From contig NC_014315.1 of NCBI RefSeq assembly GCF_000143085.1, positions 434,001-498,000 of the forward strand: DNA of 64,000 nt. Direction: 5' to 3'. Position numbers and translations under genes: made by a program. Source of the stretch: Nitrosococcus watsonii C-113 (GTDB taxonomy: Bacteria; Pseudomonadota; Gammaproteobacteria; Nitrosococcales; Nitrosococcaceae). Positions 5,552 through 15,628 of the stretch are shown piece by piece; the stretch's first letter is position 1; each line of letters opens with the position of its first letter. The notes under the pieces were generated by a model. That model saw nothing but the letters and a program-made list of their open reading frames with translations. It did not search any database and was not told the origin of the DNA.

Positions 5552-6769
5552 ATGCCAACCCAAAAAGAGCAATTATTTGCTGCCCTCGAAAAGGCAGGAG
5601 TCCCTCCTGTCCCCCATGAATTTTCGGTGGTGCCTTGGCACCAATTTATCTCCTCTAAGACGATGGCGGAGATCAGGAACTTTATTAAAGTTTTTGAACG
5701 TGTTACCACCCGGTTGGAGTGGCAAAAATCTGTAACTACTGTTGCTCCGGAGATCGCCCGGCATCAGCGGGCTGAGGTTTGTTTTTTCAGCGCCTGGGAT
5801 TTTCATTTGCCGCCGGATCAAGACTGGCAAGTGATCGAGTTCAACGATAATGGCTCGGGCCTTCTCTTCGCAGGGTTAATGAATGATCTTTACTACCAAA
5901 TATTTAATTTATCTCAAGATACCGCTCTACAACTTCCTCCCACGTATATTGAATTGATAGGACAAATTATTCGTTATGTAAAGCAGGAGGCAAAAGAATT
6001 TTTTGAACATTGGCCCCAAGGATTATTTCTGATTCTGGAGGAGGTGGAAGCGCTGCAAAAGGGAAAATTTCGCAATGAACTGTTTCTGCTGCGAGATATT
6101 TTTTGTCACCAAGGTTGGAAGGCGGCAATCGCTTCCCCCGAGCAATTGTACTGGGACGGGAGGCGATTACACTGGGAGGGACAAGAAGTCTCTTTTATCG
6201 TAAATCGATCCACCGATTTTCTCTGGCAGGGGAAAATTTTCTCTCCGCTGCGGGCTGCCTACGAGGCAGATCAAGTCTATGTGGCGCCTAATCCCTTCAC
6301 CTATGCCACCCGCAGTGATAAGCGTTTGCTGGAACGGCTTTCCTTATCTGTTTGGGACCAGGAATTGGGCATTCAACCTGAAGAGCGAGCGGTTCTCAGC
6401 TCTCATATCCCGGAAACCCATTGGCTGCGGCCGGAAAATGTTGAAGAGTTGGCCCACAGAAAAGAAGAATTCATATTCAAGCCAGCGCAGGGGTTTGCGG
6501 CGAGAGGATTGCTGGCCAGTACTCAGGTGGGCCGCTCGCGCCTGCGCCGGTTACTCAAGGAAGGGGCAGGGTATGTGGCCCAGAAAAAAATCCCCAAAAG
6601 CCGTTTGCGTGGAGAAAATCCTGAAAACAGCGAATTGTGGACTGATTTGCGAGTTTGGGCTTATCGAGGGGAAATTCTCCTGTTGTCAGGTCGGGCTTCA
6701 AGCTCTCCTGATAAGCTTGATTTATCGCCGCCCGGTGGCTGGCTTCCCACTTATGTCCAGCAAGTTTAG
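5552..6769 (+). CDS. putative ATP-grasp-fold protein of unknown substrate
   Basis: A 405-residue soluble protein I do not recognise by name. Two regions point to ATP-grasp chemistry. Near residues 91-102, VIEFNDNGSGLLFAGLMND resembles the Glu/Asn metal-binding element. Near 305-385, FIFKPAQGFAARG, YVAQKKIP and LWTDLRVWAYRGEILLLSGR resemble the ATP-lysine loop, the hinge and the Asp/Arg strand. In ordinary ATP-grasp enzymes the Glu/Asn element comes last; here it comes first, as in circularly permuted and glutathionylspermidine-synthase-like members. Such enzymes join a carboxylate to an amine or thiol using ATP. The stop overlaps the end of the convergent nucleotidyltransferase gene by 4 bases. 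Catalytic activity is inferred, not shown. Confidence 0.6.
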   Translation: MPTQKEQLFAALEKAGVPPVPHEFSVVPWHQFISSKTMAEIRNFIKVFERVTTRLEWQKSVTTVAPEIARHQRAEVCFFSAWDFHLPPDQDWQVIEFNDNGSGLLFAGLMNDLYYQIFNLSQDTALQLPPTYIELIGQIIRYVKQEAKEFFEHWPQGLFLILEEVEALQKGKFRNELFLLRDIFCHQGWKAAIASPEQLYWDGRRLHWEGQEVSFIVNRSTDFLWQGKIFSPLRAAYEADQVYVAPNPFTYATRSDKRLLERLSLSVWDQELGIQPEERAVLSSHIPETHWLRPENVEELAHRKEEFIFKPAQGFAARGLLASTQVGRSRLRRLLKEGAGYVAQKKIPKSRLRGENPENSELWTDLRVWAYRGEILLLSGRASSSPDKLDLSPPGGWLPTYVQQV

Positions 6770-7626
6770 CGGAGTGGGTAAAGAGTATTTTGGGGCATTG
6801 TTAGAGACGGTCTGATATTTTCCCGCCACTGAATGAGCTGGGTTGTAAGGGAGCGTTCACCATATAAACGCATACGCTCAATATAGATGGTTATGAAATT
6901 ATGATAGAGCTTGATGAGTCCCTTATTAAGCTGTTCGGTAACAAGGTCGCTATCTTCAGGGAGGGAATGAAGTCTCCACTGGTAGCCATAACGTACAAGC
7001 TCGGCATCCTTACCATTGAAATGGTCGGCATAGTATTGGCAAGAAGCCTCATTGCCGGCTATTTCTCCGGTTCTTTCAAGGTATATGAATCGGGCTGGAA
7101 AGAGGATGGTTTTAGTGACATACACAGTCCCTTTTTGGGTGATGCGCGCGCAGTCGAAGAATTCCTCTATTCTTTCCTTGTGACCAAGAGAGTTAAGAGC
7201 AAACTCGGCCCCAGAGATCTCCAGTTCTTTTTGGGTAGGTTTGATTAATTCACTTCGAATATCCGTTCCCGTTAGAAGTAATGCGTGGTCTATCAGATCG
7301 AGTCGATCAAAGGGAGGATAGCGACCAGCGTCAATAATACCGTTAATAGAGTCTACAGAACCCCAGAAGATAGAAACGTTATTTTTTATTGCCGGGTTTT
7401 TATTTCGAGCGATAGATCGGATTTTATCAATGTTGAATTTATCGTCCTCTTGGAGCGGGCTAGCAAGGATAATTCCGATGTCAATATCGCTGGCAACTTC
7501 ACTAAAACCACCTCTGGCTAGACTGCCCATAAGATAGATAGCGATACATCTATTTTTAAAGATATCTTGCGCCGCTAGTGCTACATTAGTTACTAATAAT
7601 TTTATTGCGTGGTTGTCCTTTTTCAC
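6766..7626 (-). CDS. nucleotidyltransferase-domain protein (Pol beta superfamily)
   Basis: The 286-residue protein has the minimal nucleotidyltransferase signature near residues 33-53: IYLMGSLARGGFSEVASD followed by IDIGII, that is GSxxxG plus DxDxG with two metal-binding Asp. The rest (about 110-286) is predicted helical, with Tyr/Arg-rich helices such as KTILFPARFIYLERTGE and LYHNFITIYIERMRLYGE. Length and layout resemble aminoglycoside nucleotidyltransferases (AadA/ANT) more than the 100-residue MNT antitoxins. The substrate cannot be told from sequence. No HEPN toxin gene lies beside it. The gene is AT-rich relative to the hsd genes. Confidence 0.75.
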   Translation of the reverse strand: MKKDNHAIKLLVTNVALAAQDIFKNRCIAIYLMGSLARGGFSEVASDIDIGIILASPLQEDDKFNIDKIRSIARNKNPAIKNNVSIFWGSVDSINGIIDAGRYPPFDRLDLIDHALLLTGTDIRSELIKPTQKELEISGAEFALNSLGHKERIEEFFDCARITQKGTVYVTKTILFPARFIYLERTGEIAGNEASCQYYADHFNGKDAELVRYGYQWRLHSLPEDSDLVTEQLNKGLIKLYHNFITIYIERMRLYGERSLTTQLIQWRENIRPSLTMPQNTLYPLR

Positions 7627-7721: not shown

Positions 7722-7982
7722 TTATTTTATAATTCCTTTGCATAGGTTTCTTTTGTCATCATCTTTAATGAGATTGCATCTTGAATTTTTATCGGTAATT
7801 AATGCAACGCAGAAGAATTTATAATCCTTATTCTGTATTAAATAGCACCAAGAAACTTGAGATGCAGATATTGCCTGACAGAAATGTTTGGTATCCATAT
7901 CTTGAATGAGATTGCAGTTGGCTTTTACTGAAGTCATCATCAGATTAGCTAAAACTGCAAGCAGTAAACCTAGATTTCTCAC
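7722..7982 (-). CDS. small exported protein with 23-residue double-cysteine repeat
   Basis: I do not recognise a family. The 86-residue product starts with a Sec-type signal (MRNLGLLLAVLANLMMTSVKA). The mature part has six cysteines at residues 23, 35, 46, 58, 69 and 81, spaced 12-11-12-11-12. This makes two and a half 23-residue units of the form C-[NY]-L-I-x3-D-x3-[FL]-C. Repeated CNLI, CYLI and CNLI starts make a chance frame unlikely. Such spacing suggests stacked helical hairpins closed by disulfides in the periplasm. The start is a GTG at 7982; no ATG is available nearby in frame and the ribosome site is weak. The neighbours do not suggest a job. Confidence 0.65.
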   Translation of the reverse strand: MRNLGLLLAVLANLMMTSVKANCNLIQDMDTKHFCQAISASQVSWCYLIQNKDYKFFCVALITDKNSRCNLIKDDDKRNLCKGIIK

Positions 7983-8131
7983 CGCCAGATGATCAAGAAT
8001 ACGCCAAAATTTATGTGTGCTGCCAATCGCAGCGGTGCGATTTTTTTATGATGGTTAGAGATGGCATTGAATCACCGGCTATCAGTCATCATAAAAGGGC
8101 AGGGTTATGCGTCCAGGAAACGCCTGCTTCA

Positions 8132-9003: not shown

Positions 9004-12000
9004 TTACGAAAAGCTCGTATGCTGAGTGAGCATTTTTAGGATGACCAGCGCAAAGTCCCGGCTCTTGGTTTTGTTGTCCAGCACTTCCAGGGACAGCTTT
9101 TCGTGGTCGGTCATGGCGTCCAGTACGGTATCCAGCACCCGCTTGGGAAACAGACCGTGCATGACCTGGTCCACTGAATGGCTATTAACCTGGGCCATCA
9201 CATCCTCTTGGCGGCTGATACGCTGGGCGATACCGGTGAGAAATTGCAATTGGTCCTCATCACTGACCTCGGCACCAAAAATCTCATTCAGCGCCTCGAT
9301 GATTTCCGACAGGCGTTTCTTTTCCGGGTCGTGGGGCTGGCCGCTGCCGATATCGCTGCCGGGCTTGAGGGTGTATTCCGCGGCCTCCTCATTCAACCGC
9401 AACTGCTGTTCGGCTCGCTTGCTCAGGCGGTAGTGGGTCAGCTGCAGCTCACCGATATCTACCTCCTCCTGGAGGCGATCCACGCGCAGCAGCGGGTGCA
9501 GGTGCTTGGCGAACACACATAATTGTTCCAGCTCGCGGTCCTCATAGGGCACGATTTGCGAGAGGAACTCATAGAGGCGCACAAAGCTCTGCAGGTTCTT
9601 GCGGAACAGGTCCAGCCGGTCAATCTGCTCACCGGCTTCCTTGAGCGCGTGCTCGGCCTTCTTTAGGCCGGTATTATCACCATTGACCTCGGCGGTGCGT
9701 TTGAACCCCAGCGCCTGCTGGCGGGAGTCCAGGCTGAAGGCATAGCGCCTGGCGAAGCGCTCGCGGGCCGGTTGGCAGTGATAGCTGAGTTTGCTGGCCA
9801 CCGCCTTGGGATCGAAGAAGGCCAGCGCAAAGGCTTCAACCTCGTTCCAGTAATAAATGCCTTCCTCATCCAGCGTTCTCTGCAAGTCGTAGATGACCTG
9901 TGGATGGGTGACATCGGTCAGCTCGGCCCGGGTATAATAGGGCAAAAAAGCATCGAGAATATCCTGTGGCTCGTTGAAGAAGTCAAGGATAAAGGTCTGC
10001 TTGCCCTCGCCGAACTTCCTGTTCAAGCGCGACAAGGTCTGCACGCAGTCCACCCCTTGCAGCTTCTTGTCCACGTACATGGCGCACAGTTTTGGCTGGT
10101 CGAAGCCGGTCTGGTACTTGTTGGCGGCGATGAGTACGTTGAAATCGTGAGTGTCGAAAGCCTCGGCCAGGTCGCGGCCATGGAGGTCCGGGTTGAGCAG
10201 GCCGCTGGTTTCGGTGACTTCTTCCGGGATCACCTCATCAGGCAACACGCTGCCGGAAAACGCCACCAGCGGATGCACATCCCTGTAGCCCATCCGCCTG
10301 ACATAGCTCTTTACCGCCAACTGGTAGCGCACCGCCTCCTGGCGGCCACTGGTCACCACCATAGCCTTGGCTTGGCCGTTCAATAGATGGCGGATGTTGG
10401 CGCGGAAGTGTTCGACGATGACCTCGACCTTCTGGCTAATATTGTACGGATGCAGCCGCACCCAGCGCGCCAGCTTGATGCGCGCTTTCTTTGAGTCAAC
10501 CTCCTCATCCTCGCCTTCCGGGTGGGCGATCTTCCATGCGGTACTGTAGCTGAGGTAGTTCTGCAGCACATCAAGAATAAAACCCTCCTCGATGGCCTGG
10601 CGCATGGAATACAGATGAAAAGCCTCGGGCTTGTTGTCGGCGCTGGGCGGCACGCTCGGCTCCGGCGGGCGGCCAAACAGCTCCAGGGTCTTGGCCTTGG
10701 GCGTGGCGGTAAAAGCGTAGTAGCTGATGCGTTCATTGGGCTGGCGGGCCTGGACAGCGGCATCGAGCAGGTCTTCGGCGCTGATCTCTTTCGGCTCTTG
10801 ATGATCAGCGTCCACTTGTTCGGAACTCAAAATAGCCTTGAGCTTGCTGGCCGAGGAGCCAGTTTGCGAAGAGTGGGCCTCGTCGGCGATGACCGCATAG
10901 CGGCCACTGGCCAGGCTGGGGTATTTATCCAGCGCCTCGAACAGGGCCGGAAAGGTCTGAATGGTGACGATGATGATGCGGGTCTGTTCAGTCAGGGCCT
11001 CGGCCAATTGCTGGGACTTGCTCTGGTTGCCGATATCCCGGGTGATGGGTCGCACTACGCCGTGGGCGTGCTCGAACTGGTAGATAGTATTCTGTAACTG
11101 GCGGTCCAGCACCGTGCGGTCGGTTACCACGATCACCGAGTTGAACAGCTTCTGCCCCGCGTCGTCATACAGCGCGGCCAGTTGGTGCGCCGTCCAGGCG
11201 ATGGAGTTGGACTTGCCCGAGCCGGCGCTGTGCTGAATGAGGTAGCGCTTGCCTGGCCCTTCACTGCGGGTGGTTTCAATCAGCTGATTGACCACCTCCC
11301 ACTGGTGATAGCGGGGGAAGATCATGGTCTCTTTGGTGCTGAGCTGGCCGTCAAAGCCCTCAACGGTTTTCTTCTCCAGGTGCAGGAAGCGCCCCAGCAC
11401 CTTGAGCCAGGCAGCGGGCTGGAACAGCCGTTGCCATAGGTAACCGGTGGCGTACTGGCCGCCGTCCGCCGGCTGGGGATTACCGGCGCCGCCGTCTTCA
11501 CTTCCAAGGTTGAAGGGCAGGAAGCAGGTGTCCTTGCCGGCCAGCCGGGTGGTCATGGCCACTTCGTCCTGGCTCACGGCAAAATGCACCAGTGCCCCGC
11601 GCTTGAAGGTGAGCAAGGGCTCGGGTTTGCGGCTCAGCGGGTCTTTGACCGGGCGGTCATGGCGGTACTGGCGCTTGGCGTTTTCCACCGACTGCTTGAA
11701 CTGGCTTTTCAGTTCCAGGGTGGCGGTGGGCAGGCCGTTGACGAACAGCACCAGATCCAGCCGCGGATTGTAGCCGCCGCCCTGCCTCGTGGCATCGCGG
11801 GCATGGGGCGAGTAGGCCACCTCCGGCACCACCCGCAGACGGTTGCACTGGTAGCGCTTGAGCGTGTCCGGGTTCATGCTGTGGTCGGGCTTGAAGCTGC
11901 ACAACTCCACTTTTACCGCCGGTAGCTTGAAACCATGGCGCAGCACCTCCAGGGTGCCGTGCTGCTCCAGCTCGCGCACCAGCTTCTGCACCAGCACGCT

Positions 12001-12195
12001 TGCCGGGTTATTGGGGTTGGCCTTGGCGAACTTGTCCCAGCGCTCCGGCCAGGCATCCTTGAAGTAGCCCAGGAAATCCTCGGTATACAGGGCGGCGCGG
12101 CGGTCATAGCCCCTGGCCGTGCCCACCCGCCAGCCCTGGGCGGCGAGGGCGTTGATGATGTCCTGCTGGAATTGGGCTTCCTTGCTATCCGCCAT
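9004..12195 (-). CDS. hsdR: type I restriction enzyme R subunit
   Basis: The 1063-residue product is the restriction/translocation subunit. Its N-terminal nuclease domain shows RLDLVLFVNGLPTATLELKS near residues 145-165 (PD-(D/E)xK type). A superfamily 2 helicase motor follows: Walker A HSAGSGKSNS near 322, DEAH in ADEAHSSQTG near 438, motif III TATPK near 498, and ANKYQTGFDQP near 685 (motifs V/VI). The C-terminal helical part should bind the methylase core. It pumps DNA past the bound complex and cuts unmodified DNA. The ATG overlaps the hsdS stop by one base (TAATG), a coupled arrangement. GC looks higher than in core neighbours. Confidence 0.96.
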   Translation of the reverse strand: MADSKEAQFQQDIINALAAQGWRVGTARGYDRRAALYTEDFLGYFKDAWPERWDKFAKANPNNPASVLVQKLVRELEQHGTLEVLRHGFKLPAVKVELCSFKPDHSMNPDTLKRYQCNRLRVVPEVAYSPHARDATRQGGGYNPRLDLVLFVNGLPTATLELKSQFKQSVENAKRQYRHDRPVKDPLSRKPEPLLTFKRGALVHFAVSQDEVAMTTRLAGKDTCFLPFNLGSEDGGAGNPQPADGGQYATGYLWQRLFQPAAWLKVLGRFLHLEKKTVEGFDGQLSTKETMIFPRYHQWEVVNQLIETTRSEGPGKRYLIQHSAGSGKSNSIAWTAHQLAALYDDAGQKLFNSVIVVTDRTVLDRQLQNTIYQFEHAHGVVRPITRDIGNQSKSQQLAEALTEQTRIIIVTIQTFPALFEALDKYPSLASGRYAVIADEAHSSQTGSSASKLKAILSSEQVDADHQEPKEISAEDLLDAAVQARQPNERISYYAFTATPKAKTLELFGRPPEPSVPPSADNKPEAFHLYSMRQAIEEGFILDVLQNYLSYSTAWKIAHPEGEDEEVDSKKARIKLARWVRLHPYNISQKVEVIVEHFRANIRHLLNGQAKAMVVTSGRQEAVRYQLAVKSYVRRMGYRDVHPLVAFSGSVLPDEVIPEEVTETSGLLNPDLHGRDLAEAFDTHDFNVLIAANKYQTGFDQPKLCAMYVDKKLQGVDCVQTLSRLNRKFGEGKQTFILDFFNEPQDILDAFLPYYTRAELTDVTHPQVIYDLQRTLDEEGIYYWNEVEAFALAFFDPKAVASKLSYHCQPARERFARRYAFSLDSRQQALGFKRTAEVNGDNTGLKKAEHALKEAGEQIDRLDLFRKNLQSFVRLYEFLSQIVPYEDRELEQLCVFAKHLHPLLRVDRLQEEVDIGELQLTHYRLSKRAEQQLRLNEEAAEYTLKPGSDIGSGQPHDPEKKRLSEIIEALNEIFGAEVSDEDQLQFLTGIAQRISRQEDVMAQVNSHSVDQVMHGLFPKRVLDTVLDAMTDHEKLSLEVLDNKTKSRDFALVILKMLTQHTSFS

Positions 12196-13643
12196 TACAC
12201 GGTCTCGTTTTCCAATTCGGGAGATGGCACGCTGGCCGGTGGCTGCCAGCCCCGCACGTCAATTTTTCCGGTGACAGCAGCGGAGATTAGGGCGGAGCGG
12301 CGTTCTTGGAGCAATCTGATTCCAGAGCAAGCATCCAACATGAGGCAATCAAACTTATCTATTAGCGTTTCAATATACTCAAGAATCCTCCTTAACTCTT
12401 CAGCAGGAGGTATCGGAATACTTATTGACTCAATACCTTCGCTCGCGATATTTGGCTGATTTGTGATAGTTAAGTTATTCTTAAATTGGCTCAAAAACGA
12501 TTCTGATTGCGATGAGACAAGCAAGTAGCGAGACAATGCTTCATCATTAATACTGATGAACCCAACTCGCTGATTGATCAGAGGCCGTAAGTCCTTTTCT
12601 AGTCTCGCTATCTTGATGCCTCCTGAAATTACAGGGCGAGTCATTGCGAAAATTAAAGACCCTTTTGGTGCGATAAACTCACTATGTCTTACCGTAAAGC
12701 TTTCGGGGAGGTAAGATGCATCATTCCACTCAAAACCAAGATGCCCTACATTTGATATTTTAATGACCAAATGCCCCTCATCACTGAAGTCGGTGCTTTT
12801 AAAAGCAAAGCCACCGATAACGCGGCCATAATGCTTAATTTTTTTTACCTCCCAATGCGCAGGGACTTCCCCCAACCACTCCACGCCGGAGTCTTTCATT
12901 GGCACGGTGGGGTCCAGGCCCTTGGTGACGGCGTGGGAGATGACGGCCTGACGCTTCTCCTTGAGCAGTTCAATCAGACGCTGCTGCTCTGCAATCAGCG
13001 CGTCGATGCGAGCGGTTTCGTGGTCGAGAAAGCGGGCGATTTGGGTTTGTTCGTTTCTATCGGGTATAGCCACAGTGAAGCCATCGATCACTTCGCCAGG
13101 AACCCGCTTGAGACCGCCTGCACCGATCATAGATGCGGTGCAAATGCTCATAAAAACGCCTTCTTGCAAGCGGTAATACAGGAAACCCACATCAATTTTA
13201 AATGGCCTAATCACATTGATTTCGCTTGACCCAAAGCCGACCCCGTTTGTCAGCCCATCAGCTATGGCGATGTTTCCATTCTCGAAGCACGGCGTCACCT
13301 TTGCTTGTAAAACATCTCCATCTTCAAAATAGGTGTATCCAGTAATCACATCAGCAATGGTTCGCACTTCATCCAGCTGAATTGCGCCAGTTTTCAACTT
13401 TTCCATCGGTATAAAGCTGCACAGCTGGCCTTGATCGCCACGATAGTCTGATTTTTTTGGATTCAGCTCAGCGAAATATTTTAGAGAGGTAGTGGTCCAA
13501 TGCTCCGGCACCTCTCCCAGCCACTCCACACCCGAATCCTTGTACGCCGGATACCTCGGAAATTTACTCTGGCTACTCTTAGCCTCGCCCTGCCGGCCAA
13601 CCGCTGCGTACGTCTCCAGATTTTCTCCCGACATATCCGTCAT
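12195..13643 (-). CDS. hsdS: type I restriction enzyme specificity subunit
   Basis: The 482-residue subunit has the usual two half-sites. Each target-recognition domain is introduced by a near-identical module (YKDSGVEWLGEVPEHW near residue 35 and MKDSGVEWLGEVPAHW near 250) and closed by a coiled-coil spacer. The central spacer is RIDALIAEQQRLIELLKEKR and the distal one includes LQERRSALISAAVTGKIDV. The two recognition domains define the halves of a bipartite DNA target, which cannot be read from sequence. The domains are AT-richer than the conserved spacers, usual for exchangeable hsdS modules. The start overlaps the hsdM stop by 4 bases (ATGA). Both halves look intact. Confidence 0.95.
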   Translation of the reverse strand: MTDMSGENLETYAAVGRQGEAKSSQSKFPRYPAYKDSGVEWLGEVPEHWTTTSLKYFAELNPKKSDYRGDQGQLCSFIPMEKLKTGAIQLDEVRTIADVITGYTYFEDGDVLQAKVTPCFENGNIAIADGLTNGVGFGSSEINVIRPFKIDVGFLYYRLQEGVFMSICTASMIGAGGLKRVPGEVIDGFTVAIPDRNEQTQIARFLDHETARIDALIAEQQRLIELLKEKRQAVISHAVTKGLDPTVPMKDSGVEWLGEVPAHWEVKKIKHYGRVIGGFAFKSTDFSDEGHLVIKISNVGHLGFEWNDASYLPESFTVRHSEFIAPKGSLIFAMTRPVISGGIKIARLEKDLRPLINQRVGFISINDEALSRYLLVSSQSESFLSQFKNNLTITNQPNIASEGIESISIPIPPAEELRRILEYIETLIDKFDCLMLDACSGIRLLQERRSALISAAVTGKIDVRGWQPPASVPSPELENETV

Positions 13644-15628
13644 GCCGACAGTTCCTCAATCATCTGCTTGATGCGATCAGTGCAGGCTTTCAGGTCGCGG
13701 TCGATGGCTTCCAGTGGGCGTGGTGGCTGGAATACATAAAAGTGGCGGTTGAAGGGGATCTCGAAGCCGACGATGCCGACCTCGCCGTCCAGCGCATCAC
13801 GCTTGCTCTCGTTGATCCAGGCGTCGGGCACGTGGGGGATGACTTCGCGCTGGAAGTAGTCGTACACGGATTCACCCAGGGGCACGTTCTCGTTGTCCCG
13901 CAGGCCGGTGTCCGGCTCGGGCTTGCCCTTGGTTGTGCAGATATCCGCCTCGGGGTCGCGCTCGCCGAGGCCGTTCAATAGGGCCTTTTGCTCCGGGGTG
14001 CTGAGGCTGACGCCGTGGGCGGTCAGGGTCTTTTTCAGGAGCTTGGCGAACTGCTCGCGGTTGCGATACAGCGGGCTTGGGTCCATGGCCCCCAGGGCGT
14101 CGGCGAGTTGCTGGCGGGCGGTGTCATCCAGCTTCTGGATGGCTTTTTCCCGCAGCACGTTGTCAATGCGCGCGGCGCTGGCCTGGAAGTTGAGCCGCAG
14201 GGGGCGCTCGACGGTGATGCGGCGGTAGCCGAAGGCGTTGATGGGGAAGATTTTGCTCTGGGGGGTTTCCTCGAAGGCGCCATAGAGGCGTACCAGCTCG
14301 TTGATCTGCTCGGCGGTGACGTACTGGCGCTTGCTGCCCAGGGATTTGCGCATCTTGGCAAAGTGCTGGCTGCCGTCGATGAGCTGCACCTTGCCCCTGC
14401 GCTCGGCGGGCTTGTGGTTGGACAGTAGCCACACATAGGTGGCGATGCCGGTGTTGTAGAACATGTCGGTGGGCAGGGCGATGATGGCCTCGACCAGATC
14501 GTGCTGCAGCAGGTAGCGGCGGATCTCGGATTCGCCGGAGCCAGCGCCGCCGGTGAACAGGGGCGAGCCGTTCAAGATAATACCGATGCGCGAACCGCCG
14601 TCGCGAGGGTCGCGCATTTTGCTGACCAGGTGCAGTAGGAACAGCAATGAGCCGTCGGGCACCCGTGGCAGGCCGGGGCCGAAGCGGCCGTTGAAGCCCT
14701 TGTGCTTGTGCTCGCCGCTGATCTGCTTCTGGACCTTTTTCCATTCCACGCCGAAGGGTGGATTGGAGAGCATGAAGTCGAAGCGGTGTTCCGGGCCGGT
14801 TAGCTGGTCGTTGGACAGGGTGTTGCCCAGCTTGATATTGGCCACATCCTGGCCCTTGATTAGCATGTCGGCCTTGCAGATGGCGTAGGACTCGGGGTTG
14901 AGTTCCTGGCCGTGGAGGGATACCGAGACCTTTTCGCTGATGGACTGGATATATTCATCACCTTCGGAGAGAAAGCCGCCCGTGCCTGCGGTGGGATCAT
15001 AAATGGTGACGATGCGGTTGGGCGCCAGCTTGTCGTCCTGGCCGGTGATCACCAGCGAGGTGGTCAGGTGGACGATATCCCGCGGGGTGAAGTGCTCCCC
15101 GGCGGTTTCATTGGAGCTTTCAGCGAAGCGGCGTATCAACTCCTCGAAGATGATGCCCATGCCAAAATTGCTAATGCGCGCCGGGCTGAGATCGGTGGCG
15201 GCGAAGCGTTGCACCACCTGGTACAGCAGGTTGGCGCTGCTAAGCTGCTGGACGAAGTTCTCGAACTCGAAATGCTCAAAGATTTCGCAAGCGTCGGTGC
15301 TGAAAGACTGCGCGTAGCTCATCAGGTCGGCAGCGGTCTGGGTGTCGGACAGGGTGCCCAGGGTCAGCGGCGAAGCGTTGAAGAATTGCAGACCACTGGC
15401 GGCGCGCCGCAGCAGCATCTCACGCACATGGTCGGGCTTGTGCTGATGCACCGTCGCCTGCTGGACGACCTTGGCTTTGGTGGGTTCGAGCACGCACTCC
15501 ATGCGCCGCAGCAGGGTGAACGGCAGGATGATGCGGCCATACTGGGACTGCTTGAAGTCACCGCGCAGCAGATCGGCTATGGACCATAGGAAAGCAGCCG
15601 TCTGGGAATGATTCTCGGTGTTCACCAC
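13640..15628 (-). CDS. hsdM: type I restriction enzyme methylase subunit
   Basis: The 662-residue N6-adenine methyltransferase subunit has an N-terminal helical HsdM domain (TAAFLWSIADLLRG, ILPFTLLRRMECVLEP), the SAM-binding motif DPTAGTGGFLSEG near residue 214, and the catalytic NPPFGVEWKK near 289. The long C-terminal region (about 480-662) is typical of this large HsdM type and ends in a coiled coil for subunit contacts. It modifies host DNA and, with HsdS and HsdR, restricts foreign DNA. It is the first gene of the operon. Translation has to start at GTG 15628 or GTG 15625: an in-frame stop lies just upstream and no ATG fits. A transposon-type hairpin begins about 15 bases upstream. Confidence 0.95.
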   Translation of the reverse strand: MVNTENHSQTAAFLWSIADLLRGDFKQSQYGRIILPFTLLRRMECVLEPTKAKVVQQATVHQHKPDHVREMLLRRAASGLQFFNASPLTLGTLSDTQTAADLMSYAQSFSTDACEIFEHFEFENFVQQLSSANLLYQVVQRFAATDLSPARISNFGMGIIFEELIRRFAESSNETAGEHFTPRDIVHLTTSLVITGQDDKLAPNRIVTIYDPTAGTGGFLSEGDEYIQSISEKVSVSLHGQELNPESYAICKADMLIKGQDVANIKLGNTLSNDQLTGPEHRFDFMLSNPPFGVEWKKVQKQISGEHKHKGFNGRFGPGLPRVPDGSLLFLLHLVSKMRDPRDGGSRIGIILNGSPLFTGGAGSGESEIRRYLLQHDLVEAIIALPTDMFYNTGIATYVWLLSNHKPAERRGKVQLIDGSQHFAKMRKSLGSKRQYVTAEQINELVRLYGAFEETPQSKIFPINAFGYRRITVERPLRLNFQASAARIDNVLREKAIQKLDDTARQQLADALGAMDPSPLYRNREQFAKLLKKTLTAHGVSLSTPEQKALLNGLGERDPEADICTTKGKPEPDTGLRDNENVPLGESVYDYFQREVIPHVPDAWINESKRDALDGEVGIVGFEIPFNRHFYVFQPPRPLEAIDRDLKACTDRIKQMIEELSA

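Follow-up and report, generated by a model that had tools for sequence, protein, structure and literature searches.

Helical repeats tied by disulfides have been described in the Hcp proteins, which are built of alpha/alpha repeats, include one member with a signal peptide (HcpC) and have been proposed to act as scaffolds (excerpts of PMC3851747 and PMC2581425). The unit of these Sel1-like proteins has 36 to 38 residues, 36 in HcpB and HcpC, according to the excerpted text of PMC3851747, and their disulfides connect each repeat, at its end, with the beginning of the one that follows. A second point of comparison is Spackle of phage T4, an early product whose mature form of 75 residues is a helical, disulfide-bonded periplasmic inhibitor of the gp5 tail lysozyme; the excerpt of its description (PMC7677548) gives it one disulfide, describes no repeat and has it grip a basic surface of the lysozyme. 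TPR proteins, with units of 34 residues, provide a third.

Here we analysed a window of 64,000 nucleotides from Nitrosococcus watsonii C-113 which holds a gene for a small protein with a repeat of only 23 residues. The protein and its relatives would have in common with HcpB and HcpC the alpha/alpha helical repeats, here predicted, and the ties by disulfide, which in our case would lie inside the unit. With Spackle, a small, helical, disulfide-bonded periplasmic phage protein, they would share these general traits, while the repeat family differs from it in being repetitive and mildly basic; no PDB chain was matched by sequence, the Spackle structure 6X6O (cited in the excerpt of PMC7677548) being presumably among the chains searched. 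We read the family as an undescribed variant of disulfide-tied helical repeats.

The gene and its cysteine ladder

The features of the locus are as follows.

7722 to 7982, minus strand: open reading frame of the repeat protein, 86 residues, GTG start at 7982, stop codon (7722 to 7724) included
7920 to 7982, minus strand: apparent Sec signal peptide, residues 1 to 21, with a hydrophobic core and putative cleavage after V-K-A
7848 to 7916, minus strand: repeat unit 1, residues 23 to 45, cysteines 23 and 35; from the DNA pattern and the cysteine spacing, with a predicted helix 29 to 40
7779 to 7847, minus strand: repeat unit 2, residues 46 to 68, cysteines 46 and 58; predicted helices 43 to 48 and 52 to 63
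7725 to 7778, minus strand: repeat unit 3, residues 69 to 86, cysteines 69 and 81; from the cysteine spacing, with predicted helices 66 to 71 and 75 to 84
7983 to 8131, minus strand: intergenic stretch upstream of the gene, of whose 149 bases 135 are conserved in the same-genus genome G002 (65 of 95 in the downstream gap)
8115 to 8088, minus strand: weak promoter-like match within the upstream intergenic stretch
6766 to 7626, minus strand: downstream neighbour, a protein with a nucleotidyltransferase domain (Pfam PF01909, 1.4e-5)

The six cysteines of the protein stand at residues 23, 35, 46, 58, 69 and 81, in steps of 12-11-12-11-12. This ladder had been the subject of the initial annotation, whose coordinates, strand, frame and spacing all proved correct, as did the C-[NY]-L-I opening that it gave to each unit (CNLI, CYLI and CNLI). 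Its judgement that such regularity exceeds chance also holds: with six cysteines placed at random in the mature part of 65 residues, the exact ladder arises with a probability of about 8e-8, and a ladder of any two strictly alternating steps (up to 29) with one of about 8e-5. A DNA pattern for a pair of units, drawn up after the repeat was seen, matched twice in the window, both times within this reading frame, and in none of 100 shuffles. The N-terminus reaches a best 12-residue Kyte-Doolittle mean of 2.38 and ends in V-K-A before N-C, so that the protein would be secreted, a call that draws on hydropathy and sequence. A protein search found one copy in the genome.

A second genome of the genus, G002, has an ortholog that is 91% identical, with the same gene order. 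The differences between the two spare every cysteine, and with a dN of 0.046 and a dS of 0.197 their ratio is 0.23, which suggests purifying selection on the gene, though from just 18 base differences. Promoter-like matches in the region numbered 8 as against 4.3 (sd 2.2) in shuffles of it. Just upstream of the gene lies a plus-strand terminator-like hairpin (8016 to 8042), whose core is identical in G002; a plus-strand gene for it to end is not evident, and terminator-like sites there occur in near the number expected by chance.

The gene is present in two of four genomes of the genus and adjoins the nucleotidyltransferase gene in both genomes that carry it; G001 and G003 gave no DNA match to either gene, and in them the two flanking genes stand apart from one another. 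The G+C content of the repeat gene is 32% as against 51% for the window, and the locus looks like an acquired islet. The nucleotidyltransferase has a weak PADLOC match to the candidate PDC-S09 (1.7e-8) and one to ANT(9) (2.4e-6) that falls far under the ANT(9) cut-off. A complete type I restriction(-modification) system lies about 1 kb away (9004 to 15628), a closeness that may be coincidental.

Relatives in plasmids, phages and genome contigs

When the window protein was used as query, 115 plasmid records matched at E 1 or below (best 1e-6), and a plasmid protein used in turn matched 117 of 72,556 plasmid records at E 0.01, 116 of them from Pseudomonas. The plasmids among the matches listed are mostly of 300 to 640 kb, with a few smaller, and 106 records carry a gene at least 95% identical in DNA to one plasmid copy (L026). 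Beneath 59 of the 60 plasmid matches listed there is no annotated gene, in a gene table known to be incomplete. By record length, 13 of 16 plasmids in the table excerpt of PMC9537497 correspond to carrier records, and these 13 include 8 of the 10 labelled IncP-2 in that excerpt (one label being incomplete); one of the 13 is filed as P. paraeruginosa, not P. aeruginosa. The plasmids pOZ176 and p12969-DIM are not among the plasmid matches listed. Among 50,697 phage records the plasmid protein matched six at E 0.1, which are five phages of about 90 kb: Touem01 at 5e-11, and ST4, Jeremy, Dolphis and PHB04 (twice) at 2e-5 to 7e-4.

Whether homologs keep the cysteine spacing could be read from 13 loci found by similarity or profile rather than by a cysteine pattern, and 12 of them do (L003, L026 to L034, L037 and L038). 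At the thirteenth (L035:4842-5264), on a P. rhodesiae plasmid, the protein is made of six units of a repeat with a shorter period, its cysteines in 12-9 steps, and a fourteenth locus (L244) has, read by eye, a two-unit ladder of 12-11-12. At least three of 369 genomes sampled in the class carry the repeat, as do at least two of 398 in the phylum, each count including the genome of the window and being a lower bound scored from part of the first-look candidates; L037 and L038 were added by the profile search in the class, L244 by another search in the phylum. A search for relatives at E 1 gave a match in 22 of 95 genomes. The 22 loci L004 to L025 lack a ladder in an open frame and were dropped, while the genome of the window and G002 were kept. 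A protein-pattern scan of viral contigs (alignment A1) returned eight stretches and no confirmed relative.

An IUPAC pattern for a unit pair, which matches 15 of 38 loci collected up to then, including every member known at that point except L035, was scanned more widely and found in at least 117 stretches of genome contigs and in 66 of viral contigs. Of these 183 loci 177 have the pattern in an open frame; 162 gave 163 reading frames with a usable start, coding for 146 distinct proteins, and 129 complete and regularly spaced proteins entered the unit statistics. Many of the 80 genome-contig titles listed are Burkholderiales or Betaproteobacteria, the others including further Proteobacteria, Myxococcales and Nitrospinaceae. 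Some pattern matches, for instance L113, L143 and L154, are probably chance hits or looser relatives.

The family unit is C-x2-I-x-[DN]-x-D-x-[RKQ]-x2-C-x-A-x8 with a period of 23, mostly in 2, 3 or 6 copies. Among the 163 reading frames from the matches listed, 77 chain two units, 55 three and 24 six, with few others; one viral lineage has two units in all of its 22 reading frames, and the listed genome-contig loci outside that lineage (99 reading frames) have three in 45, two in 25 and six in 23. Unit spacing is 23 in 299 of 336 cases, 244 of these 336 meeting the search pattern itself, and in 55 of the 92 pairs outside the pattern. Of 400 distinct units 95% have Ile at position 4, 86% have Asp at position 8 and 83% have Ala at position 15, frequencies that the search pattern partly forces, as the unit rule wholly forces both cysteines. 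The window protein has C1, I4, D8 and C13 in all three units and A15 in units 1 and 2, which is replaced by Gly in unit 3. A hydropathy rule finds a hydrophobic N-terminus in 117 of the 129 members, the window protein having one too.

Two kinds of variant array were observed besides. Four loci (L058, L112, L143 and L154; the first two Woesearchaeota by title) hold looser C-x2-I arrays, whose spacing is longer or irregular and which may belong to a wider superfamily, and a Nitrospina-type subfamily (L063, L079, L088, L097 and L107) combines a long N-terminal part with an opening unit from which the first cysteine is missing.

The genes around the repeat are fixed in parts of the viral set. In a first viral lineage one cluster of reading frames follows the gene in 19 loci and another precedes it in 15, both being present in 12. 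Representatives of these flanking clusters proved on scanning to be a head maturation protease and a DNA helicase. The preceding cluster is separated from the repeat gene by 16 to 26 bp in 12 of the 15 loci. ST4, Jeremy and Dolphis have the order portal, hypothetical, repeat gene, capsid maturation protease, hypothetical, major capsid protein, and the order is similar in Touem01 and PHB04, with extra or unlabelled genes and with the PHB04 portal outside the stretch read. In all 14 loci of a second viral lineage the two-unit repeat gene is preceded, at a distance of 31 to 52 bp, by a gene of about 190 codons; most of these loci also have a sigma factor gene upstream and one for a DNA ligase downstream. 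The 190-residue product (L181:2801-3373 and 13 similar loci) has invariant G-E-S and G-L-G-Q-V-M in six aligned sequences, motifs reminiscent of lytic transglycosylases. At E 0.01 it matched nothing in Pfam or the PHROGs, its PDB matches stayed at E 0.15 or worse, and its model (mean pLDDT 73.3, below 50 in the motif region) had no significant structural match. Neither lineage takes in 27 of the 62 viral loci.

The genome-contig loci listed have heterogeneous neighbours, none common to most of them. At three loci a reading frame of one cluster follows the repeat gene by 11 bp, and the one scanned, at L057, matches Adhesin_E (8.6e-19). A reading frame of 304 to 310 codons was seen to end 0 to 19 bp upstream of three-unit genes at L075, L081, L084, L103 and L138, four of which have Burkholderiales titles; its product has a hydrophobic N-terminal segment, and the single representative scanned against Pfam was unmatched at E 0.01. 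This is an accessory family spread widely over phages, megaplasmids and genome contigs of several phyla, and family and repeat are almost certainly real.

Predicted fold and disulfide pairing

For structure prediction we used alignment A3, which comprises 43 sequences, the window protein and 42 of 48 distinct three-unit proteins (L039, L062, L095, L116, L176 and L212 were left out), and in which the cysteines are invariant by construction, as required by the DNA pattern and the three-unit filter. AlphaFold2 gave a mean pLDDT of 88.6, with block means of 64 over residues 1 to 20 of the window protein and of 92 to 98 over residues 21 to 86. Helices were predicted at 29 to 40, 43 to 48, 52 to 63, 66 to 71 and 75 to 84, and each unit would therefore consist of a short helix with the first cysteine and a longer one, of 10 to 12 residues, with the second. 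The units are predicted to stack into a compact alpha-solenoid.

The disulfide-ladder solenoid that the initial annotation had put forward as plausible thus fits the predicted alternation of short and long helices and the two cysteines per unit, few being spare, with two DsbA-family genes present in the genome, while the disulfides themselves we infer. Probably there is one in each unit, C23-C35, C46-C58 and C69-C81. Pairing within units is favoured because 117 of the 146 distinct proteins have exactly two cysteines per unit and none spare (in many of the remainder a cysteine lies within the signal peptide, the contig is cut or the array is looser), and because several six-unit proteins have a longer linker between units 3 and 4 and yet retain the outer cysteines; the same linker makes three units look like one domain. 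A simple estimate of helix register would equally allow C35-C46 and C58-C69. We consider it likely that the protein is an exported solenoid stapled in this manner.

Structural searches returned no close match. Foldseek against the PDB and viral predicted structures gave nothing below E 0.7, which is not proof of a new fold. A second-look structural alignment gave seven chains with Z of 3.3 to 6.2, several of which we take to be TPR-like; such values may reflect merely a common arrangement. Among these comparisons an EscE/EsaH chain scored Z 5.5 (rmsd 2.3, 56 residues aligned) and a Pex5 TPR chain Z 4.4 (rmsd 4.8, 60 aligned). The TPR differs in its unit length, and Foldseek itself gave nothing better than E 2.7. 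On a Sel1-like alpha/alpha superhelix the analysis gave a predicted helical repeat and structural matches that are weak. Spackle is not among the Foldseek or VIA-align matches listed, a result that leaves room for a Spackle fold.

Likewise Pfam, NCBIfam, PHROGs, PADLOC and the PDB sequences yielded no convincing match. The window protein lies under every curated cut-off listed for it in Pfam and NCBIfam; over the 43 members the best E values were 4.7e-4 in Pfam (LPD28, matched by seven of the 43) and 0.0094 in NCBIfam, the latter a weak match of one member to a model for bufferin-type metallophores. The Pfam listing for the 43 members at E 0.1 runs to 23 families and includes no Sel1 or TPR model, PADLOC gave no family for them at E 0.01, and their profile found no match at E 10 among all PDB chains. 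A partial match of the window protein to phrog_38239 (6.1e-5, over 21 residues) concerns a group without function that just one of the 43 members matches at E 0.01. The open-access literature, a thin basis, yielded no paper on the repeat family. The earlier statement that no known family has this signature accordingly stands for the curated libraries, but the protein is no isolated oddity, the repeat being widely spread. Taken together, the family is real, conserved and absent from the libraries searched, with a fold that we predict and a chemistry that we infer.

Possible functions

We lean towards a protein-binding scaffold rather than an enzyme or a metal store. As we picture it, the protein would be exported to the periplasm by Sec and oxidised there by Dsb enzymes, with one disulfide formed inside each unit; every unit would then be a closed staple, and arrays could grow or shrink by whole units. 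The result would be a rugged periplasmic binder kept as an accessory gene by phages, megaplasmids and chromosomes, a reading suggested by the apparent export, the probable unit-wise disulfides, the carriage by selfish elements, the patchy presence on chromosomes and the want of an evident catalytic residue. This binder might act at the envelope, blocking a step by which the DNA of competing phages or plasmids enters. The explanation as a whole, in which a stapled, exported repeat blocks the entry of rival DNA at the envelope, is the best that we have and is offered tentatively.

Exclusion of incoming DNA is our leading guess for the function, and a somewhat doubtful one. It is suggested by carriers that compete with phages and plasmids, and by the excerpted review PMC3564109, in which all IncP2 plasmids inhibit phage growth and RPL11 stops the functions of D3112 after infection and not after prophage induction, the pattern that an entry block would give. 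The same excerpt attributes to IncP2 plasmids a block of intracellular phage development, as distinct from one at the envelope, which makes exclusion less likely. IncP-2 plasmids may also carry other defences, and the repeat gene would be linked to their phage inhibition by association only. A shared exclusion factor, with two units in phages and three or six in IncP-2 megaplasmids and chromosomes, that halts rival phage or plasmid DNA at the envelope and explains part of the long-reported IncP-2 phage-inhibition trait, is very unlikely. Against exclusion is also the place of the gene in the head-gene cluster of the first viral lineage, a place that hints at late expression; many exclusion proteins are early. 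The mildly basic charge of the proteins, the want of a partner gene shared by most genome-contig copies and the absence of a PADLOC match for the 43 members at E 0.01 count against it too.

The protein could instead serve host envelope housekeeping, or be a secreted adhesion scaffold, unrelated to phage conflict and merely picked up by phages and plasmids. The many Burkholderiales and Betaproteobacteria among the 80 titles listed, several of them lake or river isolates by name, would fit such a role, as would the Adhesin_E match 11 bp after the repeat gene of L057 and neighbours that are otherwise heterogeneous, but the patchiness in the class (at least 3 of 369), the fixed place in two viral lineages and the carriage by a group of megaplasmids speak against it, and we rate it as doubtful.

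An unlikely alternative is a Spackle-like or lysis-control protein that, by binding a periplasmic muramidase or holin, slows the breakdown of the cell wall in the course of infection, and that plasmids and chromosomes would use against tail lysozymes. It has a precedent in T4 Spackle, itself a small disulfide-bonded helical periplasmic lysozyme inhibitor (excerpt of PMC7677548), and the 190-codon gene that precedes the repeat gene throughout the second viral lineage, with its invariant motifs, counts in its favour. That product is, however, without a Pfam or PHROG match and its middling model is unmatched, and a search of the PDB chains with the repeat profile gave nothing at E 10. The net charge of the mature proteins has medians of +2 to +4 in six of seven groups and of -1.5 in the seventh, which holds two proteins (single proteins range from -5 to +10, with +3 for the window protein); being mildly basic, the family would be unsuited in charge to grip a basic lysozyme, which argues against a close copy of T4 Spackle.

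Still less probable is a metal or thiol buffer, in which paired cysteines would take up periplasmic Cu(I), Zn or the like with a capacity that scales with copy number. Two cysteines per unit in variable copy number, the tellurite resistance genes that the excerpt of PMC7070040 places in the core of IncP-2-type megaplasmids and the bufferin match are in its favour; that match is single and weak, however, the unit is not defined by CxxC or CxC, Ile follows the first cysteine by three residues in 95% of units (in part an effect of the search pattern), and the copy numbers fall mainly at 2, 3 and 6 rather than being spread. A chance reading frame or coding artefact, for which the GTG start, the low G+C and the unannotated plasmid matches (59 of 60 listed, in that incomplete table) could be adduced, is ruled out for practical purposes by the improbable spacing, the same ladder in homologs found by similarity and the dN/dS of 0.23.

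The family named here is large and uncurated; its proteins are probably exported, and their helical repeat is unusually compact. Its membership rule is a simple DNA pattern, by which anyone can count the family in other collections, and the compact repeat of 23 residues would make a handy scaffold for protein design. If exclusion were true, the family would provide a testable gene for the phage-inhibition trait of IncP-2 megaplasmids, which the excerpt of the review describes as general (PMC3564109), and would have a bearing on phage therapy against hosts that carry such megaplasmids.
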